Shown: positions 26,711 through 38,876 of the stretch, in pieces
Position numbering within the stretch: the first letter of the stretch is position 1
How the letters are laid out: the number at the start of each line of letters is the position of its first letter
Assembly (NCBI RefSeq): GCF_002024165.1
Contig: NZ_MWQN01000001.1
Coordinates: 1,798,001 to 1,862,000, forward strand
Source of the DNA: Embleya scabrispora
GTDB lineage: Bacteria > Actinomycetota > Actinomycetes > Streptomycetales > Streptomycetaceae
Length of the DNA: 64,000 nucleotides
Reading direction: 5' to 3'
Program-made: the position numbers and the translations under genes
The notes under the pieces: model-generated
Database searches by the model: none
What the model was told of the DNA's origin: nothing
What the model saw: the letters and a program-made list of their open reading frames with translations, nothing else

Positions 26711-27068
26711 GTGCCTCGTCTCGTCTGCCCCCGTGAAGACACCCGCCAGGACGGCGGGAGCCCGTACGGCCGCCCCCGAGGCGACGGACATGGGCCGCGC
26801 GGGGGCGGTCGCGGTTCGTCCCTCGTCGTCGACCGGTGGTCCGGGTTCCGGTGATGGGCGAGGTCGTCCACACCTTGGGGAGCCACCTATCCCTGCCCCC
26901 GATCCGCCGAGCCGAACTCGCGACGATCCTCGCGGGCGGCCGAGGCTTGAGTCGCCGATCGGGGGGCAGGTGTGCGAGCGTCCCGAACGAGCGGTCGGCG
27001 CGCCGGCGCCGAGCCCGAGTGCCGGCCGCTGTCCGCCCGTGTCCCCGGCCCTGGAGGAAGGTCAGGTC
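26711..27068. other. Divergent intergenic region
   Basis: 358 bp between the phosphatase and the ATPase gene. I see no RNA gene or clear operator; it should contain the promoters for both. Confidence 0.4.
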
Positions 27069-27653
27069 ATGACTCGACTTCGCCGTTCCCTCTTCCGGTG
27101 GCGGGTGCCGCGGCAGACCGGTGCGGCCGGGAGGGCCCGGGGGCAGGTGCGGGCCGCGCTCGCCGGCTGGGGCTGGGACGAGGACCGCGTCGCGACGGCC
27201 GTCCTGGTCGTGTCGGAGCTGTTGACCAACGCCCGGTTGCACACCGACGGGCCCATCGGCCTGACCGTACGCCGCACCAGGCACGGGGTACGGCTGTCGG
27301 TCACCGACGCCGACCCCCGGCCGCCGGCCCGGCGCGACACCGGCCCCCACCACGAGGGCGGCTTCGGCCTGCACATCCTCGACACGATCACCGCGCGCTG
27401 GGGCATTCGCACCCACCGAGCCGGCAAGACCGTCTGGGCCGACCTCGACGCCCCCCACCGCGACGCCCGCTCCCGCCCGTGGCCGGCCCGCGCCCGATCG
27501 ACCGCCGCCGTGGCCCGGGCCGCATTCGCGGCGGGGTCACGAACGGCTGCGGCAACGGCCCGGGTGCGCCTACCCCCGACCCTCCGACGCGCACGACGCG
27601 CCCGGCGCGGGGGCACTGGCCTGATGCTCATGAACACATTCGCGGCGGCGTAG
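27069..27653 (+). CDS. RsbW-like ATP-binding regulator (HATPase_c)
   Basis: A 194-residue protein with a GHKL ATPase domain at residues about 15-135: N box SELLTNARLHTDGP, G1 box SVTDADPRPP and G2 box GGFGLHIL. This is the streptomycete group of anti-sigma kinase-like proteins. The C-terminal 60 residues are an Arg/Ala-rich tail, unusual for the family. ATG 27069 is preceded by GGAGGAAGG. It is divergent from the PP2C phosphatase. Its sigma or anti-anti-sigma partner is not nearby. Confidence 0.88.
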   Translation: MTRLRRSLFRWRVPRQTGAAGRARGQVRAALAGWGWDEDRVATAVLVVSELLTNARLHTDGPIGLTVRRTRHGVRLSVTDADPRPPARRDTGPHHEGGFGLHILDTITARWGIRTHRAGKTVWADLDAPHRDARSRPWPARARSTAAVARAAFAAGSRTAAATARVRLPPTLRRARRARRGGTGLMLMNTFAAA

Positions 27654-27854
27654 TCCGCCGTTCCGACCCTGATGGACGATGCGGCCCGGCACAGGAAGTC
27701 GACCGGCCCGGGTCGCCGGTGCAATGCGGCGGGCGGCGGGCGGATGCGGCGTCGGAGCGTGCCGAGCCGGAAACGGCGGCGGTCTCGGTGGCGATGGATG
27801 ATCCGCGTGGGGCGCGTGCCCGTCGGGGCACCGCGCCTCGGCGTCCTCAGCGGG

Positions 27855-28205
27855 TCAGGAGTCGTCGTCCGAGCGGGTCTCGGCCGCGTCGCGCAGTTCC
27901 GCGTTCAGGCGCAGGGCCTCCTCGAGTTGGTCCTCGAGGATGACGATGCGGCAGGCGGCGTCGATGGCGGTGCCCTGGTCGACGAGTTCGCGGGCACGTT
28001 GGGCGATGCGCAACTGGTAGCGGGAGTAGCGGCGGTGGCCGCCCTCGGAGCGCAGGGGGGTGATCAGGCCGTAGTCGCCGATCGCGCGCAGAAAGCCCTG
28101 CGAGGCGCCGATCAGTTCGGCGGCGCGCCCCATGGTGTAGGCGGGGTAGTCGTCGTCGTCCAGCCTGTCGGCCTTGGTCGGGGTCGATCCGGGTTCGGGG
28201 GCCAT
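27855..28205 (-). CDS. MerR-family regulator
   Basis: A 116-residue protein: acidic N-terminus, then a MerR-type winged helix (YTMGRAAELIGASQGFLRAIGDYGLITPLRSEGGHRRYSRYQLRIA) and a short C-terminal coiled coil with an acidic end. This corresponds to the HTH plus dimer helix only, with no effector domain. GAGAGG precedes ATG 28205. The large repeat-bearing spacer lies directly upstream. Confidence 0.85.
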   Translation of the reverse strand: MAPEPGSTPTKADRLDDDDYPAYTMGRAAELIGASQGFLRAIGDYGLITPLRSEGGHRRYSRYQLRIAQRARELVDQGTAIDAACRIVILEDQLEEALRLNAELRDAAETRSDDDS

Positions 28206-28257
28206 CGGCGCCTCTCTTGAGTTCACGTCCGTATGCGGGCTGCTCGGGAAACGCATC

Positions 28258-28294
28258 GAGGGGCCCTGGTGCCGTACGGCACCAGGGCCCCGAA
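28258..28294. terminator. Hairpin of duplicated unit A
   Basis: GAGGGGCCCTGGTGCC and GGCACCAGGGCCCC form a 14-bp stem around a 4-nt loop. A near copy occurs at 28867-28903. Terminator-like, but the two copies head duplicated non-coding units. Confidence 0.7.
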
Positions 28295-28800
28295 AGAAAT
28301 CCACACCATCCACCGACACCGACGTGTCGGCCTACTTGTTCCGCGTCCGCCCCAACAGGTGGGGGCGCGGGGATCGCAATTGCGTGACCGCGGACCACCT
28401 TTCGTACCGGCGTCTCTACGGATCCCACTCGGCCGAACAACCTCACCGCGCCGAGCGGGCGATCCGGATGGTGTTCGCTCCTTCCTCTCCTACCTTCGTC
28501 GTACAACGTGTACTGCCACTGCGGGTACAACCGAACTGCCGGGAACTGCTCGTCCTGCACGCGGCCCCGTGGGCCGCCCTCGGTTTCTCCTCGGCCCGAC
28601 AACCAGCCTCCGGAACCCTCGCCGAACAACACATGGCCCCGGGACTCTGCTGTCGAACCCTCAACAACGCGCGCCAGTTCGTCTCTGTCGCGCCTCACTG
28701 ATTCGCTTGGCTACACCAGGAAACATACCCACAGTCTCGCTCCATGTCTACTGCGGCCACGGTAGATTTTCCAGCGTCGTCGGATAACGAAGTTCGCCCG
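28258..28800 (+). repeat. Degenerate non-coding unit A
   Basis: First of two similar blocks. Order of shared pieces: hairpin; GGGGGCGCGGGGATCGC; GGGCGATCCGGATGG; CTCCTTCCTCTCC; a stretch rich in TACTGC/GCGGGTAC; CTCCGGAACCC; GGCTACA; then ATGTCTACTGCGGCCACGG at 28744. GC content and codon use are unlike the neighbouring genes, and no ribosome-binding site precedes the ATG. Possibly duplicated leader regions of decayed genes. Confidence 0.65.
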
Positions 28801-28866
28801 GAACGCGGTGCGGCCCGGGCGGCATGCGTGGGCGCCGTCATCGCGCCCCTCGTTCTCCGCAAAAAG

Positions 28867-29610
28867 TTGAGGGGCCCTGGTGCCTTACGGCATCCAGGGC
28901 CCCGAAGGAACTGCTACACCACCTGCCGGCCTGTTACTGCACCGGCTTACCGTTTCCGCGGGCCCGACCGAAACTGCCGTCGGGGGCGCGGGGATCGCGG
29001 TTGCTCGACCGGAGACCACCTCACTATCGATGTCCTGCGGTACCCGGGCTCAAGACTTCCGCCCGGGCGATCCCGATGGCGCTTCCACTCCTTCGTTCTT
29101 CCCTCGGTGACGATGCACTGCGTACTGCCGGTACTGCGGTACTACTGGTGTTCCTCGTGTTGCGCACTGCCGGTGATACATACCGCTCGGTGGCCTGTGA
29201 CAGCACCACCCTTCGACAGCCGGCCCCGATCGCCCGTCCTGCCACCACTTGGCGTGGAACCCCACTGCCGAACCTCCCGGTGCGTGCGCCCGCAGTCGAC
29301 GCCTTCACCGAGGTACTGCTCACCTACTGCACTGCGGGTACTGCTCACGGTGGCCACTATCACCCAGGCCACCCGGTGCGACCGTCGGTCCCGTCGCCGC
29401 CTTTCGACAACTGGCTTCGGAACCCCACCAGCGCACCGTCCTGCACACTGCAACTTCGCGTACTTCGCCCGGCAGTTCATGTCTGCCAGGGCCTTCTGTC
29501 TCTCTGGGCTACAAGAGAAACCATACCCACACCAGAACCCAATGTCTACTCCCGCCACAACAGATTTTTCCCAGTCCCAGGAGCACAAAATCCGCCTCGC
29601 ACCAAGGCCA
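28867..29610 (+). repeat. Degenerate non-coding unit B
   Basis: Second copy of the block with the same order of landmarks: hairpin (28867-28903), GTCGGGGGCGCGGGGATCGC, GGGCGATCCCGATGG, CTCCTTCGTTCTTCC, a longer TACTGC/GCGGTAC-rich stretch, TTCGGAACCCC, GGCTACA and ATGTCTACTCCCGCC at 29542. It is about 190 bp longer than unit A between hairpin and ATG. A partial third copy (TTCCGCTTGGGCGATGCATCC) appears at 29767-29788, cut off by the nitroreductase gene. Confidence 0.65.
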
Positions 29611-29824
29611 TCCTCAACGGCCGCCCATACGGATCGAACTCCACCACGCACGCAGCCCGCCCCACGCACAGTCGAAGGCGGATCGCAGACGGATCCAGGA
29701 TGAGCGAACCCGCCCCACTCACCCCAGTCCCGGTCGAACGGTGTTCCCCGGCCGTGGCCCACCGCTTCCGCTTGGGCGATGCATCCGGGATACCGGCCCC
29801 CTGCGGGGCAACCGGGCGTAGGCC

Positions 29825-30340
29825 CTATCCGTCTACGCGCTCCAGCACGACAACGGGGATCTGCCTGCCCGCAATTGCCTCGAACTCGGCGAACTTCGGG
29901 ACGAGCGCCACCTCTTGCGCCCACAGTCGCTCGCGCTCTTCTCCGTGCGCGAGCCGGGCCGTGACCGGCACGGTCCGGGTGCCCACCTCGACGGTGACGC
30001 GCGGGTTCGCCATGAGATTGCGGACCCATGCCGGATCACGCGGACTGCCACCGTGGGTTCCGAAGACGGCCCAGCCGTTGTCGACCGGCTGGAAGAACAA
30101 CGGGTTGATCCGCTTGCGGCCGCTCCTGGCCCCGATGTTGTGCACCAGGATGAGCGACATTCCCCGTTCGTCGAAGCCGGGTATCCGGGGCGGGACGGGA
30201 CGGCCTGCCGCGAACTCCGCCTCGCTGCTCCAGGACACACACCCGGCGTTCGCCCGGAACTCGGCGATGATCCGTTCGTTCCAAGTGGTGCCGTCCGGCA
30301 CGGTGACATCGTTCGCGCCGGTCGTGGACGGGTCGGACAT
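29825..30340 (-). CDS. Nitroreductase/deazaflavin (F420)-dependent oxidoreductase family
   Basis: A 171-residue split-barrel protein of the DDN/FGD-related family (FDERGMSLILVHNIGARSGRKRINPLFF, WAVFGTHGGSPRDPAWVRNLMANPRVTVEVG). Family members bind F420 or FMN and reduce quinones, nitro compounds or xenobiotics. It is divergent from a TetR gene, and the intergenic region carries two matching palindromes, so induction by a small molecule through the TetR protein is likely. GAGGGAAG precedes ATG 30340. Confidence 0.9.
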   Translation of the reverse strand: MSDPSTTGANDVTVPDGTTWNERIIAEFRANAGCVSWSSEAEFAAGRPVPPRIPGFDERGMSLILVHNIGARSGRKRINPLFFQPVDNGWAVFGTHGGSPRDPAWVRNLMANPRVTVEVGTRTVPVTARLAHGEERERLWAQEVALVPKFAEFEAIAGRQIPVVVLERVDG

Positions 30341-30355
30341 GGCTTCCCTCTCGCT

Positions 30356-30407
30356 ATCCGGAGCACGTGCTCCTCAAAGTAGCACGCGCGGAGCACCTGC
30401 TCCGGAT
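30356..30407. promoter_or_regulatory. Twin TetR-type operators
   Basis: Two 14-bp palindromes, GGAGCACGTGCTCC (30360-30373, perfect) and GGAGCACCTGCTCC (30390-30403, centre mismatch), are centred 30 bp apart, about three helical turns. Outer ATCC/GGAT bases extend the whole arrangement into one large inverted repeat. Located between the divergent nitroreductase and tetR genes. Confidence 0.85.
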
Positions 30408-30426
30408 AAGCCATAGACTCATCCCC

Positions 30427-31125
30427 ATGCCAGTGGCCGAACCAGAAGAACCGGAAGACCCAAAAGAACCGAAAGGCACCACAAAACGCCGCGCGGCGCG
30501 CGCGGACGCGACCCGCAATCGCGAAGCGATCATCGAGGCCGCCTCGGAAGTCCTGGCCACCCGCGGCACCGCGGTGGACGTGCGCGAGATCGCCGCCCGC
30601 AGCGGAGTGGGCATGGGCACCCTCTACCGGCACTTCCCCAAGAAGGAAGACCTCATCCGCACCGTCCTGCACCGGGAATTCTCCCGATGGGCGGACTCCG
30701 CACGCCAAACGGCCATCGAGGCCCGAGACCCCTGGGCCGCCCTGACCGACTTCTACCGACAGGCCCTCACCGGCTACGCACGCCACAGCGCCATCATGGA
30801 AAACTTCGCCCTGACCTGGTCGGTCCCCGACCTCGACGGCATCCGGCAGCTTCGCCTGGTCATCGAGGAACTACGCGCCCGCGCCACCGACGTGCTGCGC
30901 CCCGGCGTGACCACCGACGACCTTCTGCTCCTGCTGGTCTCCCTGGGCCACGCCGTACAGGTCACCGACGACTGCCGCCCCCACATGTGGAACAGACTGC
31001 TGCACATCTCCCTCGCCGGCCTGCACGCCGACCACCGCGAGCCACTACCCACCGAGCCGGCACCGACACCCGCAGCACCAAAGCACCGAGCCGCCACCGA
31101 CCCCGCCCGAGACAACTCGGCATGA
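30427..31125 (+). CDS. TetR-family regulator
   Basis: A 232-residue repressor. After an acidic/basic N-terminal extension the helix-turn-helix is at about residues 30-75 (RNREAIIEAASEVLATRGTAVDVREIAARSGVGMGTLYRHFPKKEDL). The all-helical ligand-binding domain follows and ends in a Pro-rich tail. ATG 30427 lies just after the second operator, so it probably represses itself and the divergent nitroreductase. An inverted repeat (31131-31139 with 31164-31172) follows the gene and may terminate it. Confidence 0.92.
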   Translation: MPVAEPEEPEDPKEPKGTTKRRAARADATRNREAIIEAASEVLATRGTAVDVREIAARSGVGMGTLYRHFPKKEDLIRTVLHREFSRWADSARQTAIEARDPWAALTDFYRQALTGYARHSAIMENFALTWSVPDLDGIRQLRLVIEELRARATDVLRPGVTTDDLLLLLVSLGHAVQVTDDCRPHMWNRLLHISLAGLHADHREPLPTEPAPTPAAPKHRAATDPARDNSA

Positions 31126-31130
31126 CCCGA

Positions 31131-31172
31131 GAGGCGGCCGATCTGCAAGTTTCCCCACTGGCTGGCCGCCTC
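31131..31172 (+). terminator. Possible terminator after tetR
   Basis: GAGGCGGCC and GGCCGCCTC form a 9-bp stem around a 24-nt loop, 5 bp after the tetR stop. Confidence 0.45.
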
Positions 31173-31208
31173 TTGGTGGTCCTGAGCTGTGTATCTGACC
31201 GCGTGCGG

Positions 31209-31238
31209 ACAGACTCGGACTGTCGACCCCCGCTTTGT
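31209..31238. repeat. Partial tRNA-Val copy (att-like direct repeat)
   Basis: Thirty bases match the tRNA-Val gene at 32237-32266 with two mismatches, in the same orientation. The matched part runs from the anticodon loop to the T stem, the region many tyrosine integrases use as attachment core. With the intact tRNA it brackets a 1.03-kb segment. Confidence 0.75.
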
Positions 31239-31378
31239 TCGGTTCGGCTTCGGTGCGAACCGTGCGGGCGTCGAGCAGCCGGCCCGCCCGGTCGGACATC
31301 GCGCCTTGTCCGGGGGATCCCGGGCGGGTCCTGGTCGCGATACGGTCGGGCTCGGCCTGGTGGGGAGGTGCCCGGGTG

Positions 31379-31915
31379 ATGACCGTTGTGGGCATGTTCT
31401 TGTACGCGGCAGCGATGATCTTGATGGTCAAGTTCACCTTTCGCGAGATCCGACGGTGGCTGCGGGGTGAAACGGGCCGGTCGCGCCTTTGGTGGCGCAT
31501 ATCCGGACCTCCGACCCGCCCCTGGAGCGGAGCGCCGGGCCGTTCGGCCGGTCCTTGGGGACGGACGCCGATCCCGTCGCCTCGCCCCCGGGAGTGGGCT
31601 CCCGAACTGCCGTGGCCGGGCGAAGTCTGGTGGGCACTGGTGCCCTTCGCCGAGGTCGCGGGCGCCAAGGATCGGCCGTGCCTGGTGTTATCCGTACAGG
31701 GCGATGTCGCGTTGGTCGCCAAGATCACCAGTAGGTACCATCCCGCAGCCTCGGGGTTGATCCCGCTTCCACCGGGCAGCGTCGACGATCGTCAGGGCCG
31801 CCAGAGTTACGTGGATGCCCGCGAACACCGCTACGTCGCTTTCTCCGACTTCCGCCGGTGTGCGGGGTCCGTTCCCCCGACCGTGTGGCACCAGGTGCAC
31901 CGAAACGTTCCCTGA
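31379..31915 (+). CDS. PemK/MazF-like protein with N-terminal membrane helix
   Basis: A 178-residue protein. Residues 1-20 form a hydrophobic helix (MTVVGMFLYAAAMILMV) followed by positive charges, so the protein is probably membrane-anchored with its domain in the cytoplasm. Residues about 78-170 resemble the PemK/MazF fold: PWPGEVWWALVPF, KDRPCLVLS and a closing VAFSDFRR segment. MazF toxins are mRNA-cleaving ribonucleases, normally soluble and paired with an antitoxin; neither holds here. ATG 31379 has GGGAGG upstream. It lies between the partial tRNA copy and the intact tRNA-Val, beside an RHS fossil. Confidence 0.7.
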   Translation: MTVVGMFLYAAAMILMVKFTFREIRRWLRGETGRSRLWWRISGPPTRPWSGAPGRSAGPWGRTPIPSPRPREWAPELPWPGEVWWALVPFAEVAGAKDRPCLVLSVQGDVALVAKITSRYHPAASGLIPLPPGSVDDRQGRQSYVDAREHRYVAFSDFRRCAGSVPPTVWHQVHRNVP

Positions 31916-31954
31916 CTCGGCGCCGCGGGCTCGGTACGAGACCGACCGATGCTA

Positions 31955-32070
31955 CGACGCCGGTCTGGTTTCCGTCAGCGTCGTACCCATACGTCGTGTT
32001 TCCTCGGGGCCAACCGCATGGATGAGTTCGTCGGCGACATCGTAGGCATACGCCGTCGTCGCCGGAGCAC
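31955..32070 (-). pseudogene. RHS/YD-repeat fragment, frameshifted
   Basis: On the minus strand two adjacent phases give consecutive pieces of one YD repeat: TTAYAYDVADELIHAVGP in one and GNTTYGYDADGNQTGV in the next. RHS proteins have exactly this alternation, so it is a fossil of an RHS/polymorphic toxin gene broken by a frameshift. Nothing else of the gene is recognisable on either side. Confidence 0.75.
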
Positions 32071-32183
32071 CCTGGGCGGCGCTCATAACCAGGCTGAGCC
32101 GCCCACAAGGTCCGCATTGGGATATCGCGCACGCACGCCACCCCACGCGGCCCTCCGCCCGGCGTGGACATCGACCCAGGGCG

Positions 32184-32216
32184 TGAAAAAGCCCAGGTCA
32201 GCGGGCTGACCTGGGC
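32184..32216 (-). terminator. Rho-independent terminator of tRNA-Val
   Basis: An 11-bp perfect stem (32191-32201 with 32206-32216), 4-nt loop, and five T residues on the minus strand, 11 nt beyond the tRNA 3' end. Confidence 0.9.
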
Positions 32217-32227
32217 CTGATTTCGGG

Positions 32228-32301
32228 TGGGCACAGACAGACTCGAACTGTCGACCCCTGCTTTGTAAGAGCAGTGCTCTAACCAACTGAGCTATGCGCC
32301 C
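32228..32301 (-). tRNA. tRNA-Val (anticodon UAC)
   Basis: Full cloverleaf of 74 nt: acceptor GGGCGCA/TGTGCCC, D stem GCTC/GAGC, anticodon stem CTGCT/AGCAG with loop CTTACAA (anticodon TAC), T stem GACAG/CTGTC with loop TTCGAGT, discriminator A. The CCA end is not encoded. Confidence 0.97.
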
Positions 32302-32633
32302 GGATGTGAGAGGACAGCCTACCGAATCCGTGGGGGTGCGTCGTGCCGCGTTGGGGTGGGGGTGGTCACGTCGTGGGGTGGCGGGAGTTGGGGGTACCGG
32401 GAGTTGGGGGTGCCGGCGGGGGTCGGCGGGGCGGGGAGGTGCGGGGCCTGTTGTGTTGGTGCTGGTCGGGGTGGTGGCGCTGTGTCTTGCTGCGGGTCGG
32501 GGTGCCCGTTTGGCGGCCGCTGTGCACGTGCGGTTGGTTGTGTGTGGCGGCGTTGCGGGGGGCCTGTGGTGGGCTTGTTCGGTGTCGCCGATGTGCTTTT
32601 CTGCGGTCGGCTGGGGTGAACGGCATCGGGTGC
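32302..32633. other. GT-rich intergenic stretch
   Basis: Upstream of the tRNA the + strand is G/T-rich with imperfect GGGAGTTGGGGGT repeats at 32390-32412. No supported gene or RNA; the tRNA promoter should lie near 32310-32345. Confidence 0.5.
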
Positions 32634-33617
32634 CTACCGCGCCGTGCCCCCGCCTGCGGCCGGTGACTGTGAGGGCTCGCCCGTCGGCACTTGTGGGAGG
32701 CCGGTGCTGCCTGGGAAAGCCCGGTTCGGCGGTGTCTGAGGGGGGCCGATCGGGACCTGCTCCCGGAAGTCGAGCATCTTCGCCCGCGCGGCCCGATTGA
32801 CCTCCGGATCGACCCAGAGCGACCAACTCGGCGACATCACGATGTCCCGGAGCTGCTTGGTCGGCACGATCTCATACCCCGGAAATCCCAGGATCCCGGC
32901 GTCGATCCTCGACGTCGCCGTCGCCGAAACCCGCACGCCGTCGCGGCGGATCACCTGCGCGGCCCATTCCGAGGGTTCCTTGCCGCCGGGGTCCGGCGTC
33001 TGCCCCTCGGCCCGCGTCTGCGCGAGATAGCCGTGCGTGCCGTCGGGTCCCACAAAGGCATCACAGACGCGGTACATCTTCCGGACCGCCGCGCAGTCGT
33101 CACCCGCGGGATCCCGACCGCTCGCCTGCACCGTCACCGTGAGCGTCGCCGCTCCCTTGGGACTCGCCACGAGCGTCACCACGAACGCACCCACCGAAGT
33201 CGGGTCCCCCGTCTTCGACACGATCCCGGCTCCGGTCAGGTCCCGCATGCTGTCGCCCAACGGCATCTGCCGAAGGATCCGCGCGATCTCCTGCGGGGAG
33301 ACCACCTCTCGGCCCGCCGGCGGAACGGCCGCCGGGTCGGGGGGAGGGCTGGTACTCGGCGCGGGCGCGCCCGCCGGTCCCGACGTCGCCCGTGTCGCCG
33401 ACCGGCCGTCGTCCATCCCCGGGAGCACCACCGCGGCGGCCCCGCCCAGCGCCACCACCGCCACCGCCGACGCACCGATCCGCATCCGGCGCGCCCGGCG
33501 CATCCGTCGCCCCCGGGTGATCCCGCCCGCGACCAATCCCGCGGGCGGGATCAATTCGGCCGCCGCCCCGCGCATCGCGGCGGCCAACTGCTGCTCCTCA
33601 GAACCCGGGGATCCCAT
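32634..33617 (-). CDS. Single-pass membrane protein of unknown function
   Basis: A 327-residue protein. Residues 1-45 are cytoplasmic with an Arg-rich end, residues about 48-66 form one membrane helix (ASAVAVVALGGAAAVVLPG), then a Pro/Ala-rich linker and a 200-residue outside domain. The topology resembles anti-sigma or sigma-associated membrane proteins in streptomycetes, but no zinc-binding anti-sigma motif is present and no sigma gene adjoins it. Two Cys in the outside domain (CAAVRKMYRVC) could form a disulfide. Function unknown. Confidence 0.75.
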   Translation of the reverse strand: MGSPGSEEQQLAAAMRGAAAELIPPAGLVAGGITRGRRMRRARRMRIGASAVAVVALGGAAAVVLPGMDDGRSATRATSGPAGAPAPSTSPPPDPAAVPPAGREVVSPQEIARILRQMPLGDSMRDLTGAGIVSKTGDPTSVGAFVVTLVASPKGAATLTVTVQASGRDPAGDDCAAVRKMYRVCDAFVGPDGTHGYLAQTRAEGQTPDPGGKEPSEWAAQVIRRDGVRVSATATSRIDAGILGFPGYEIVPTKQLRDIVMSPSWSLWVDPEVNRAARAKMLDFREQVPIGPPQTPPNRAFPGSTGLPQVPTGEPSQSPAAGGGTAR

Positions 33618-34114
33618 CGGCCTGCTGTCTCCTAGACATCCGTTCCACCACGTGTCGTGCCCCGCCCCGAGGCGGTGTCGGCAGGTCGCCCGCTCCCCAC
33701 TCGGACCGGGCGGCCGTTACGTACCGTTCCGTACTCTTCCGTACCGGATACGGGCGCGACCACGGAGTGCGCCCGGCAGCCCGCCGGATCGCGCCGCAGG
33801 CCGCCCGCTCACCCACTAGATAGGACGCAGTGGACCCCCCGGCGCGTCACGGAAATTCGCCCGGATCATGAAGTACGTTCCACGCCAAGGCAGTTGCATT
33901 CCGAAGCCACGGTATTGGACCGCACCCCACGTCATCCGCGACACACCGTCCGTACCGAACCCCCCACGTGTCCCACGACCCGCCGGCCATCGGCCCGCGA
34001 TTCGCCCGTGTCGAAGCGATGATTCCGCACCACCCGCGGAGTCTCCCTCTCGGCGGTACGAAGGCCGCCGCGCACGCGCAGCCGACCCGCACGCCGCCCC
34101 GAGGAGCCGACCCG
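33618..34114. other. Intergenic region between divergent genes
   Basis: 497 bp without a convincing gene. Around 33718-33750 TTCCGTAC is repeated twice in a run of GTACC-containing elements, a possible operator. The hydrolase promoter should lie in the AT-richer part at 33850-33930. Confidence 0.4.
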
Positions 34115-35278
34115 ATGAACCCGAGCACCCCAGACGACCTGCGCACACTGCTCGAAACCCACATCGCCGAGGGAACACCCCCGGGCGCCGTGGCCCTGCT
34201 CGCCCGCGGCGACCGCGTCGAGGTACGGGCCGCCGGCTCCCTCGACGCCGCCGGCACCGCCCCGATGGCCCGGGACTCGATCTTCCGCATCGCGTCACTC
34301 ACCAAGCCCGTCGTCGCCGCCGCGGCGATGATGCTGATCGAGGACGGCCGAATCACCCCGGACGACCCGGTCGACGACCTCCTCCCGGAACTGGCCGACC
34401 GAAGCGTGGTCCGCACGCCCTCCGCCGCGATCGACGACGTGGTCCCCGCCGATCGCCCGATCACCGTGCTCGACCTGCTCACGTTCCGGGCCGGCTACGG
34501 CTTCCCGAGCGACTTCTCGCTGCCCGCGCTCGTCCCGCTGATGGAAAGGCTGGGCCAGGGTCCGCCGCAGCCGCAACAGGTCCCCGCGCCCGACGAGTGG
34601 ATGGCGCGGCTGTCCGAGATCCCGCTACTCCACCAGCCGGGCGAGGGCTGGCTCTACAACACCTGTTCGGACATCCTCGGCGTACTGATCGCCCGGGCGG
34701 CCGGTCGTCCGCTGCCCGAATTCCTCGCCGAACGACTGTTCGAGCCTCTCGGCATGGTCGACACCGGCTTCGCGGTACCGCCCGCCGACCTGGGGCGGTT
34801 CACCACCTGCCACCTCACCGACCCGGACGGCAGCCTCCGTATCGTCGACGCCCCCACCGGCCAGTGGAGCACCCCGCCCGCCTTCCCGTCCGGTGGCGGC
34901 GGCCTGGTCTCCACCGTGGACGACTACCACGCCTTCACCCGCCTGCTCCTCGCCGAGGGCACCGTCGCCGGGCGGCGTCTGCTCTCGCCGGAGTCGATCC
35001 GCCGGATGACCACCAACCACCTGACCCCGGCGCAGCGCAGGGCCACCGACCTGTTCCTGGAGGGCCAGGGATGGGGCTTCGGCGGCTCCGTCGACATCGA
35101 GGCCGCCAACGCGTGGAACGTCCCCGGCCGCTACGGATGGATCGGCGGCACCGGCACCACGGCCCACATCGTCCCGACGACCGGCAGCACCGCCATCCTC
35201 TTCACCCAGGTACAACTCGCGGATCCCACCCCTCCCGCCCTGATGCGCGCGTTCTGGCAACTCGCCGCCCACGCCTGA
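34115..35278 (+). CDS. Serine beta-lactamase-fold hydrolase (class C/esterase group)
   Basis: A 387-residue protein of the beta-lactamase/D-alanyl-D-alanine carboxypeptidase/EstB family. The catalytic SxxK is SLTK near residue 59, the second motif is YNT in the stretch GWLYNTCSD near 182, and the third-motif region reads WIGGTGTTAH near 347. No signal peptide is visible, so it is probably a cytoplasmic esterase or amidase, not an exported beta-lactamase. ATG 34115 is chosen because GAGGAG lies 8 nt upstream. A PhzF-family gene follows in the same direction. Confidence 0.88.
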   Translation: MNPSTPDDLRTLLETHIAEGTPPGAVALLARGDRVEVRAAGSLDAAGTAPMARDSIFRIASLTKPVVAAAAMMLIEDGRITPDDPVDDLLPELADRSVVRTPSAAIDDVVPADRPITVLDLLTFRAGYGFPSDFSLPALVPLMERLGQGPPQPQQVPAPDEWMARLSEIPLLHQPGEGWLYNTCSDILGVLIARAAGRPLPEFLAERLFEPLGMVDTGFAVPPADLGRFTTCHLTDPDGSLRIVDAPTGQWSTPPAFPSGGGGLVSTVDDYHAFTRLLLAEGTVAGRRLLSPESIRRMTTNHLTPAQRRATDLFLEGQGWGFGGSVDIEAANAWNVPGRYGWIGGTGTTAHIVPTTGSTAILFTQVQLADPTPPALMRAFWQLAAHA

Positions 35279-35339
35279 CCCCACGGCCCGCCGGCGGTCC
35301 CGGGAATCGTCCCGCCGCCCGACAACGTTGCCCTGCGAC

Positions 35340-36320
35340 ATGAAGACATCGGCCCCGGACCCGGCCCCCACCGACGCCCCGCTTCGCTACACCGCCTTCT
35401 CCACCGACCCGAACGGCGGCAACCCTGCCGGCGTGGTCCTGGACGCCGGCGCTCTGACCGACCGGGACATGCTCACGATCGCCGCCGAACTCGGCTACTC
35501 CGAAACAGCCTTCCTCACCCGAACCGAAACCGAAGCCGGACCCGGACCCGGACCCGAAGCCGGAATCAAAAGCGGAACCGGAACCGCAGCCGAATCCCCA
35601 GCCGAAGCCGCAGTCGAACCCACCACCCCCCGCACCTACACCGTCCGCTACTTCAGCCCCCTCGCCGAGGTCTCCTTCTGCGGCCACGCCACCATCGCCG
35701 CCGCGATCGCCCTCGCCGAGCGCATCGGCCCCGGCCCGCTCGCCTTCACCACCCCGGCGGGCCTCGTCCCGGTCGACGTAGCCCCCGGCCCCGACGGCCG
35801 GCTCCGCGCCACGCTCACCAGCGTCGAGCCGCACCACACCCCCGCCCCGGCCGCCGACGTCGCCGAAGCGCTGGCCCTGCTCGGCTGGAGCGCCGACGAC
35901 CTCGACCCCGAACTGCCGCCCGGCTACGCCTACGCCGGTGCCCACCACCTGATCCTGGCCGCCGCGACCCGGTCCCGCCTGGCCGATCTGGATTACGACT
36001 TCGACGGCCTCGCCGCCTTCATGCGAGCCCGCGACCTGACCACGCTGCAACTGGTCCGACGCACCTCGGCGGACACCTTCCACGTCCGCGACCCGTTCCC
36101 CGTCGGCGGCGTGATCGAGGACCCGGCCACCGGCGCCGCCGCGGCCGCCCTCGGCCACTACCTGCGCGCCCTGTCCCTGGTCCCCGCGCGAGCCACCCTG
36201 ACCCTGCACCAGGGCGACGACCTCGGCCGCCCCGGCGTACTCACCGTCGACCTCGACGAACACGACCCCCGCATCCGCGTATCCGGCCCGGCCGTCCCGA
36301 TCCCCACCCCGACCGCCTGA
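35340..36320 (+). CDS. PhzF-family isomerase with low-complexity insertion
   Basis: A 326-residue PhzF/diaminopimelate-epimerase-fold protein: FSTDPNGGNPAGVVLDA near the N-terminus, the putative catalytic Glu in LGYSETAFL, CGHATIAAA near 115 and DPATGAAAAALG near 265. Right after the SETAF strand there is an insertion of about 35 residues made of Gly-Pro, Glu-Ala and Thr repeats (TETEAGPGPGPEAG), absent from typical PhzF proteins, encoded by CCGGAC-like repeats. Enzymatic role unknown; relatives isomerise small metabolites. ATG 35340 has no good ribosome-binding site. Confidence 0.88.
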   Translation: MKTSAPDPAPTDAPLRYTAFSTDPNGGNPAGVVLDAGALTDRDMLTIAAELGYSETAFLTRTETEAGPGPGPEAGIKSGTGTAAESPAEAAVEPTTPRTYTVRYFSPLAEVSFCGHATIAAAIALAERIGPGPLAFTTPAGLVPVDVAPGPDGRLRATLTSVEPHHTPAPAADVAEALALLGWSADDLDPELPPGYAYAGAHHLILAAATRSRLADLDYDFDGLAAFMRARDLTTLQLVRRTSADTFHVRDPFPVGGVIEDPATGAAAAALGHYLRALSLVPARATLTLHQGDDLGRPGVLTVDLDEHDPRIRVSGPAVPIPTPTA

Positions 36321-36404
36321 ACCCGCCACCGGCCCCGCCGCCCAACCACGCCGCCGAGCAGCCCCCGCCCGCCCCGATCCGGGTTAGCCAATTTGTGCCA
36401 CAGG

Positions 36405-36416
36405 TGGTCCAGACCA
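36405..36416. promoter_or_regulatory. DasR-like dre / chitinase-type operator
   Basis: TGGTCCAGACCA matches the core of the DasR responsive element (consensus remembered as TGGTCTAGACCA) and the 12-bp repeats of streptomycete chitinase promoters. It is 254 bp before the LPMO start. Confidence 0.8.
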
Positions 36417-36496
36417 TTGCCGACCGGAATTCCCTCTTCTAACGTGAAGGAGCGCCCCCGGTAACGAAGGCACGCGACTCGCGCAGGTCGCACCCG

Positions 36497-36520
36497 ACAC
36501 GATCCGCACCCGGATCGTGT
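36497..36520 (+). other. Hairpin in the LPMO leader
   Basis: ACACGATCCG and CGGATCGTGT form a 10-bp perfect stem with a 4-nt loop in the roughly 230-nt region between the dre-like site and the LPMO ATG. Possible mRNA stabiliser or regulator-binding site. Confidence 0.5.
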
Positions 36521-36669
36521 GGTTCCACGTTCGGATGCGGATGTCGACGTCCCATCGACTCGTGACATCCGCGCTCCGGCGCACGTGCGCACGCGCGCGG
36601 ACCGTTTCGAGGCCGCGTCCGAACGAGTCTGCCCGTCCCGGCACGACTTCGTTCACGAGGAGAAGTTCG

Positions 36670-37263
36670 ATGCGCAAGAGCACCATCCTGGCCACGCTGA
36701 GCGCTTCGGTGCTCGCCCTGCCGTTCCTGCTGCCGGCGTCCTCCGCCTCCGCCCACGGGTACATCTCCAGCCCCGCCAGCCGCTCCGCGTTGTGCGGCGA
36801 GGGCAAGGTCAAGCGCTGCGGCGACATCCAGTGGGAGCCGCAGAGCGTCGAGGGCCCCAAGGGTTACCCCGCGGGTGGACCGCCCGACGGGCAGCTGTGC
36901 GCCGGCGCGGACGGCCGCTGGGCCCCGCTCGACAATCCGCGCAACGGCGCCTGGCCGACCACCCCGCTCACCTCCGGCGCCTCGTTCAGCTTCACCTGGG
37001 AGATCGAGGCCCGGCACTCGACCACGTCGTTCCGCTACTACATCACCAAGCCGACCTGGAATCCCGCGACCCCGATCAGCCGCGCCCAGATCGAGAGCAC
37101 CCCGTTCCTGACCGTCCCGTACCACGGTGCCCAGCCCGCCGCACACCAGGTGCACACCGGCACCCTCCCGGCCGGCCGCACCGGCCGCGCGCTGATCTTC
37201 GCCGTCTGGGACGTCGACGACACCGACAACGCGTTCTACTCCTGCTCCGACGTGACCTTCTGA
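36670..37263 (+). CDS. Secreted lytic polysaccharide monooxygenase (AA10)
   Basis: A 197-residue copper enzyme that cleaves chitin or cellulose oxidatively outside the cell. Residues 1-28 are a signal peptide ending ASA; cleavage exposes His29 as the N-terminal residue of mature HGYISSPASR, one arm of the copper histidine brace. The second brace His lies in WEIEARHSTTSFRYYITK. Four Cys (CGEGKVKRCGD, and CAG, CSD) can form disulfides. No carbohydrate-binding module is attached. GAGGAGAAG precedes ATG 36670. The upstream dre-like site indicates N-acetylglucosamine/DasR control and hence chitin as substrate. Confidence 0.95.
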   Translation: MRKSTILATLSASVLALPFLLPASSASAHGYISSPASRSALCGEGKVKRCGDIQWEPQSVEGPKGYPAGGPPDGQLCAGADGRWAPLDNPRNGAWPTTPLTSGASFSFTWEIEARHSTTSFRYYITKPTWNPATPISRAQIESTPFLTVPYHGAQPAAHQVHTGTLPAGRTGRALIFAVWDVDDTDNAFYSCSDVTF

Positions 37264-37499
37264 CCGGAGCACCCTCCGGAACCACCCGTCACACCCCGCC
37301 CGGCGGTCGCCCACAACGGCCGCCGGGCCCGCCACGCCCGACATCCCCACGCACCCGCCCGTCCACCTGCCCACCCGCCCACCAGGCCCGACGGCCCACC
37401 TCACCTCCCTCCAAGCGCCCCGTCCGACCCCGGACACGCGCCGAAGGGACGGTTGGTGGACCTCCATCGGACAGCACCTGGAAGGATGGGGAGGATGGA

Positions 37500-38876
37500 G
37501 TGCGCACAGTTCACACGGTGACGGGAGCAGGCGTGGTGGTCGGATCCGCACGACGGTCCCTCGGGGGCGGCCTTCCCCTGTCGCTCACGCTCGCGCCGCT
37601 GCTCCTGGCTCTGCTCCCGGGCGCGTTCGCCGGCGGCGAGACCCGTCCGTGGCGCCGGCGCAAGGAAGCCGCCCGCTCGGCCGCACTGGCCGCGCGCGAG
37701 GCGGCGGGCGAGGCGTTCCTCCAGTTGGACACCGCGCAGCGGGACATGATGCTCTCGCTGGAGACGGTCCGAGCCGTACGCGGCGCGCGCGGCACCGAGG
37801 ACGCGCTGCGCGGCTTCGCCGCGGTGAGCCTGCGGATCGACGAGGTGAGCGCCGCCTACATCGCGCTGATGGACCGTCATCCGCTCGACGTGGAGTTGGA
37901 GACTGACGAATACGAGTCGGCTCGGCGGGAGTTGGCCGAGGTGGCGAGTCGACTCGACGCCGTGCGCCAGGAGTTGGACCGCTTCGGCACCTCGCTGGGC
38001 CCGCTGCTCGCCGACGCCGAACAGGCCCTCGGCCGACTGCCCCCCGCCGTGGACCGGGCCCGCCGCGCCGCCGCCGAGGCCGAACGGGCGGTCGCCGAGA
38101 CCGAGCGGGCCGGCCTCGGCTCGCCCGCGCTCACCACCCGACTGGCCGCCGTACGCGCCGACCTGACCGAACTGGACCGGGGCCCGGCCGCGCTGGGCAT
38201 CCCGGGCACGCTCGAGGTGGCCCAGCGGATCGAGACCTCGGCCGCCGAGCTGCGCGCGGAGGCCGAGCGGCTGCCCAGGCAGCGCGAGGAGGTCACCAAC
38301 CGGCTGTCCTCGCTGCGCACCCGCGCTCAGGCGCTGGAATCCCGCCTGGGCACGATGGAGCCGGCCCTGCACCGACTGCGCCGCGACTACGTACAGTCCT
38401 GCTGGATCGACCTGGAGCAGGTGCCGGCGCGCACCCGACAGGCCCTGGGCGTGGCCCGCAGCCGCCTGGAGGAGGCCGGCGCCGCGGCCGGACGCGGCGA
38501 GTACGCCGACGCGGTCAGCCGGCTGGCCACCGCCCGGGCCACCCTCAAGGACGCCGACGAGGCGATGGCCTCGGTCAACGACCGGCTGCACGCGCTGGAG
38601 GAGGTGGCCCGCGACCCGGAGGCCGAGCTGGAGCGCACCCGGTTCGCGCTGCGCGACGCCCAGCGGCTCGCCCTCGGCGGCCGGGCCAACGCCGAGGAGC
38701 GCTACGCCCGCCGGCTGGACGCGCTCGTGTACCGCCTGGAGGCGATCGCCGCAGAGCCGGAGCAGCCCCGCCCGGACTGGTGGCGCTTCCTCAGCGAGAC
38801 CCGGGACATCCGCGCCGAGGTCGCGGCCACCGTGCAGGTGATCCGCGAGGACCGAGCCGGCCCCGGCCCGCACTGA
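37500..38876 (+). CDS. Secreted or membrane-anchored coiled-coil protein
   Basis: A 458-residue protein of unknown function. A hydrophobic segment at residues about 22-42 (LSLTLAPLLLALLPGAFAGG) is a signal peptide or anchor; nearly all the rest is charged heptad-type helix (for example RRAAAEAERAVAETERAG). The central part resembles the region after the membrane helix in streptomycete TPM-domain proteins, but the TPM domain itself is missing; this similarity is from memory. GTG 37500 follows GGGGAGG. The last ten codons coincide with the first copy of a 31-33 bp tandem repeat. Confidence 0.75.
   Translation: MRTVHTVTGAGVVVGSARRSLGGGLPLSLTLAPLLLALLPGAFAGGETRPWRRRKEAARSAALAAREAAGEAFLQLDTAQRDMMLSLETVRAVRGARGTEDALRGFAAVSLRIDEVSAAYIALMDRHPLDVELETDEYESARRELAEVASRLDAVRQELDRFGTSLGPLLADAEQALGRLPPAVDRARRAAAEAERAVAETERAGLGSPALTTRLAAVRADLTELDRGPAALGIPGTLEVAQRIETSAAELRAEAERLPRQREEVTNRLSSLRTRAQALESRLGTMEPALHRLRRDYVQSCWIDLEQVPARTRQALGVARSRLEEAGAAAGRGEYADAVSRLATARATLKDADEAMASVNDRLHALEEVARDPEAELERTRFALRDAQRLALGGRANAEERYARRLDALVYRLEAIAAEPEQPRPDWWRFLSETRDIRAEVAATVQVIREDRAGPGPH

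Follow-up and report, generated by a model that had tools for sequence, protein, structure and literature searches.

A 1.03-kb segment beside tRNA-Val(UAC) of Embleya scabrispora is probably what is left of an integrative element

Within the window, the whole 64-kb stretch of DNA from the soil actinomycete Embleya scabrispora that was analyzed, a 1.03-kb segment next to the tRNA-Val(UAC) gene is probably what erosion has left of one integrative element, or of a stack of several, inserted by site-specific recombination and most likely by a tyrosine integrase. Two modules, each composed of a tRNA 3′ half and a hairpin, lie 1 kb apart at this gene in the pattern of site-specific integration, and the sequence between them carries two coding features and no integrase match. 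From left to right, the features are:

31130 to 31207, minus strand: decayed 3′ end of the tRNA, with a 4-nt gap, together with the older flank, which retains a relict hairpin and aligns to the tRNA-Val flank of E. scabrispora DSM 41855.
31208 to 31238, minus strand: displaced 3′ half of tRNA-Val, decayed (31 bp with 2 mismatches), its match stopping within the anticodon.
31379 to 31915, plus strand: solo PemK/MazF-like gene, 178 aa, with an N-terminal hydrophobic helix (PF02452, E 1.9e-7, above cut-off).
31940 to 32100 (approximate limits), minus strand: frameshifted fragment with two YD motifs (motif pair; RHS_repeat below cut-off).
32189 to 32225, minus strand: flank and terminator-like hairpin 3′ of the intact tRNA, common to E. 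hyalina (BLASTN to locus L031).
32226 to 32301, minus strand: intact tRNA-Val(UAC) (ARAGORN and Rfam), whose 3′ half is the attachment side.

The intact gene is matched by Rfam RF00005 at 32228-32301 (E 1.1e-14), and the search of 27000-33000 at E up to 0.1 returned nothing besides it. The first-pass annotation had described a 30-bp, two-mismatch copy of the tRNA 3′ half about 1.03 kb away in the same orientation, and measurement bears this out with a gain of one base pair: the pair 31208-31238 and 32236-32266 is identical at 29 of 31 positions, in the same orientation, with a spacing of 1,028 nt. Past a 4-nt gap in the acceptor part, the alignment resumes, runs through the tRNA 3′ end, and reaches 31130. 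The direct repeat, with this acceptor gap, covers the tRNA from the anticodon region to its 3′ end in one orientation, as expected of the remnant of a tRNA-integrated element. Scanning the 64-kb window for the tRNA-Val 3′ half at up to three mismatches gives two matches, both in the repeat pair, and none in 100 dinucleotide shuffles, which rules out a chance repeat. A whole-tRNA scan of 24 kb (20001-44000) finds one displaced copy and no more.

In the usual scheme of such insertions, the displaced half retains the older flank and the element brings a new one. BLASTN aligns 31130-31238 to the tRNA-Val 3′ half of E. scabrispora DSM 41855 and the 70 nt beyond it (74% over 114 columns, E 3.8e-10), in register with the tRNA end and about 70 nt into the downstream flank, without synteny beyond. 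The older flank alone (31130-31207) scores 27 against this strain, a value reached by none of 500 shuffles (top shuffle 26) and the highest among 14 relatives, with Streptomyces sp. SID3343 second (21, reached by 6 of 500 shuffles). The flank of the intact tRNA scores 39 against E. hyalina and 29 against a locus of another genus (L039), each unmatched by 500 shuffles; since terminators can resemble each other, as the latter match illustrates, the flank statistic taken alone is soft. The two flanks of the window score only 13 against each other, as expected if one of them arrived with an element. Folding relative to shuffles gives z values of -3.3 after the displaced copy (31120-31185), -6.0 after the intact tRNA (32180-32226) and -5.6 for the hairpin after the tRNA of E. 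scabrispora DSM 41855.

On the preferred reading of an integration remnant, the element would have supplied a new tRNA 3′ half and a new terminator (32189-32266), and its insertion would have pushed away the older half and the terminator belonging to that half (31130-31238). The integrase, along with whatever transfer genes there were, would then have been lost through later deletions that spared the MazF-like gene and the YD-repeat scrap, both of which may have come with the element. The event had been taken to be recent. This is not supported: the copy has decayed, and E. hyalina has the same flank as the one now adjoining the intact tRNA, which points to an old event. As the older flank resembles that of E. 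scabrispora DSM 41855 and the new one that of E. hyalina, the insertion would be older than the divergence from E. hyalina, in which the displaced half would later have been lost. With one attachment half damaged and no integrase, the remnant is probably immobile, and it can still be recognized as a scar because the displaced tRNA half still has its own terminator.

The 3′ half of tRNA-Val(UAC) is a hotspot and a much-used landing site in the family. At up to three mismatches, its 41-nt 3′ half is matched in 144 of 200 family genomes, with at least two matches in 50 of the 200, where second matches may include full tRNA genes; the copy in the window is too decayed to be counted among them. Extra matches end near the anticodon in genomes G006, G015, G020, G034, and G035. 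Fourteen genomes were chosen for an integrase check (four Embleya, three of genus g2, and seven others with several matches), and six of them (G006, G015, G034, G035, G061, and G101) have a PF00589 domain no more than 3 kb from a copy. Among the matches listed (8 of 10 for the genome of the window), none lies near tRNA-Val in Embleya, genus g2, or G073. Intervals between neighboring matches, 41 in 33 genomes (G020 included) among the matches listed, range from 0.26 to 428 kb with a median of 12.6 kb, 4 of the 41 being below 3 kb, and are not necessarily islands. Searched with a 45-nt Embleya core, the phage collection gave no match and the plasmid collection five Acinetobacter records at 31 of 45 nt. 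A 50-nt core from G006 likewise has no phage match and is found in two Streptomyces plasmids, in one of which the 21 listed features around the match include no integrase. A parallel short scar is seen in G020 (L035 8792-9964), where a 44-bp copy of the tRNA-Val 3′ half, free of mismatches, lies 1.17 kb from the tRNA and adjoins a partial glycosyl hydrolase family 3 gene; four frames of the interval gave no Pfam match.

Stacked copies of the 3′ half are common, with seven matches in G034, six of them within about 48 kb on contig C490 (likely a stack of elements) and the seventh on another contig, and three each in G006 and G035. The locus in the window may itself be a product of accretion by several elements, with 31130-31238 representing the inner junction of a lost second element and not the original tRNA end of the host. 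This variant, which is compatible with the preferred reading, seems possible to us, with the balance leaning against it. The flank of E. scabrispora DSM 41855 could be derived from an element, as near it lie an HTH gene and a GntR-type UTRA fragment that scores below cut-off (E 0.00025), and either accretion or such a flank would give the same flank pattern. An accretion at tRNA-Arg with a traB-less remnant is also in print (PMC9513070). The single displaced copy within the 24 kb scanned, however, speaks against a stack in the window.

The locus was compared in the three genus mates of the set: Embleya hyalina NBRC 13850 (G001), E. scabrispora DSM 41855 (G002), and Streptomyces sp. SID3343 (G003). 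The empty-site comparison that had been proposed gave no clean outcome: none of the three shows the interior between the halves at tRNA-Val, but the neighboring genes differ in all three, and no clean empty site was found among them. E. hyalina is collinear with the window on both sides, with two glycosyltransferase-type genes after the tRNA, and has no displaced copy in 20 kb; in the 20-kb stretches from E. scabrispora DSM 41855 and SID3343, no window protein is matched beyond the tRNA region. When 31150-32360 was searched against 60 other genomes, interior matches (the best candidates, up to six per genome) fell either on the PemK domain or on the part that runs from about 32106 into the tRNA and comprises the tRNA, its hairpin, and the near flank. 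Taken with the hairpin flank on the displaced copy, the hotspot, and the integrases beside copies elsewhere, the lack of the interior there lends good support to the original description of an integrase-less remnant at tRNA-Val.

Composition does not mark the segment out, because the lowered G+C (about 27.75-32.5 kb) extends to either side of the displaced copy and is broader than 1 kb. To the left of this copy lie a TetR gene and an F420H2-reductase-type gene. Farther left, 28258-29600 holds a tandem pair of units spaced by about 611 nt, both of which start with a 32-nt near-palindrome that forms a strong hairpin; they adjoin a MerR-type gene and have no Rfam match. Positions 27778-28781 have 86-87% matches elsewhere in E. 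scabrispora DSM 41855 and SID3343 and a second place in the genome of the window (C1:6202125-6203146). On the tRNA side, a gene matching 37611-38861 adjoins the 5′ side of the tRNA in genus g2 and lies 5.3 kb off in the window; the intervening genes (32302-37600) are common to E. hyalina. No strong match points to another source of the interior in the same genome, the best among the 40 of 155 candidates scored being two tRNA-Lys genes (E 5e-4). These two tRNA-Lys(ctt) genes (G000 C1:4393334 and C1:4428860; L067 and L066), 35.5 kb apart in the same orientation and with equal match scores, possibly bound an island.

Between the halves, the absence of an integrase that had been noted is confirmed: six frames of 31239-32235 gave no integrase match in Pfam at E up to 1, which rules out a hidden integrase fragment, and the same frames gave only PemK and weak matches in place of transfer or replication genes (traB, rep). 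The RHS fossil reported earlier survives in part. Two YD motifs in order, in two different frames, are not reproduced in any of 3,000 dinucleotide-shuffled versions of the interval, so the fragment is real but small; its Pfam RHS_repeat match is below cut-off (E 0.0099), there is no NCBIfam match, and it is too short for the parent gene to be named.

The PemK/MazF-like gene described between the halves is there, with PF02452 above cut-off. By eye, a GGGGAGG stretch lies 10 nt 5′ of its ATG. The single-sequence model has a helix at residues 3-28 and low confidence otherwise, and its mean pLDDT of 47.7 is too poor for a fold search. Among 60 other genomes, 18 have a homolog (E up to 1e-6), with 13 of these belonging to the family, and a hydrophobic stretch precedes the domain in all 12 family homologs examined and in none of five from the wider order; the protein is probably membrane-anchored. 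PF02452 is matched by 13 of 13 members of alignment A1, in which R100 and T118, which may be the catalytic Arg/Thr pair of PemK/MazF, are invariant. One genome with a PemK-like match (G017), to which the motif used did not match, was left out of the alignment and the anchor check. No antitoxin domain was found in the six frames of 31239-32235, and the TetR and F420-reductase genes on the left match no antitoxin family.

The MazF-like gene had also been called typical cargo, a description that is not supported: neither it nor its family is matched among 72,556 plasmid and 50,697 phage records, and its relatives occupy the same fixed position on the chromosome in six genomes, which represent three genera (L071, L072, L073, L074, L075, and L079). 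Judged by domains named on L071 only, this place is between PALP and MBL-fold genes, with JAB, PTS, and RNase PH nearby; the region spans L071 1746-8629 in G029. In two genomes the PemK-like gene adjoins two tRNA-Asn genes. On the strength of these relatives, the scar could be real and the MazF-like gene and the YD fragment could nevertheless have come separately, by local insertion or relocation, and not as cargo, an alternative that we hold to be unlikely without being far-fetched. Relocation is conceivable because all four Embleya genomes have PALP/JAB and MBL matches in which the MazF-like gene is missing, the PemK part being matched only elsewhere: in the gene of the window itself, at other places in G002 and G003, and nowhere in G001. 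Against separate arrival, the gene and the fragment lie precisely in the interval that the halves bound, and the gene is not seen at this tRNA in any of the genus mates. The window protein also groups, weakly, with streptomycete relatives (G029 and G018; 81/97, fork not starred) and outside the Embleya/Yinghuangia members. This position fits an arrival from outside, although with an end branch of 1.21 it is unsure.

Plain duplication of the tRNA 3′ end without an integrase, with which the missing integrase and the imperfect copy would agree, is improbable, as it would copy the same flank whereas those in the window are dissimilar (score 13), and as the match stops within the anticodon like the att-like copies in other genomes. 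Set against the integration remnant as a whole, which we still consider probable, are the missing integrase match and clean empty site, the softness of the flank statistic (L039), a G+C dip not confined to the 1 kb, and the lack of an integrase near tRNA-Val in Embleya among the matches listed.

As an object, this is of a known kind, a decayed mobile-element scar at a tRNA left by a well-known type of event. It offers a worked example of how an integration scar decays and documents tRNA-Val(UAC) as a landing site much used in the family. The PemK-like gene in addition draws attention to conserved relatives of the toxin family that are probably anchored in the membrane and whose role is open to direct testing. 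A more speculative and rather doubtful proposal is that they form a family that has received little notice, made up of MazF-fold proteins tethered to the membrane and encoded alone, without antitoxins, fixed in many streptomycetes between PALP and MBL-fold genes near RNase PH and acting as membrane-localized RNases and not as addiction toxins. In that case an element would have acquired one member of the family and left it behind at tRNA-Val.

Among known systems, the family profile of the window gene matches the endoribonuclease MazF6 (PDB 5hk3, E 2e-5) and, weakly, EndoA. The window protein differs from MazF6 in its hydrophobic N-terminal helix and linker and in having no recognized antitoxin adjoining, and by itself it finds no MazF structure and no NCBIfam or PADLOC match. 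A CIME is an att-bounded segment without recombination genes of its own, and the remnant resembles the CIME XSAM1 in this respect. XSAM1 adjoins pSAM2 and is 42 kb long (PMC4891641), whereas the segment here is 1 kb, with one half damaged and no partner element present; a CIME would need two usable attachment halves and a partner that mobilizes it. The AICE gene set, in part after PMC9513070, includes traB and rep. In PMC9513070, AICE03 of two Streptomyces strains is inserted in a tRNA-Val gene between 46-nt repeats. The insertion site and repeats on the length scale of a tRNA (here 31 nt ungapped and longer with the gap) are shared with the window; the difference is that AICE03 is a full element, whereas no integrase, rep, or tra match is present here, and the tRNA-Val isoacceptor may differ. 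The traB-less remnant that persists at the tRNA-Arg accretion site, described in the same paper, is likewise a short remnant between copies of a tRNA end, at another tRNA and common to all strains of its population.
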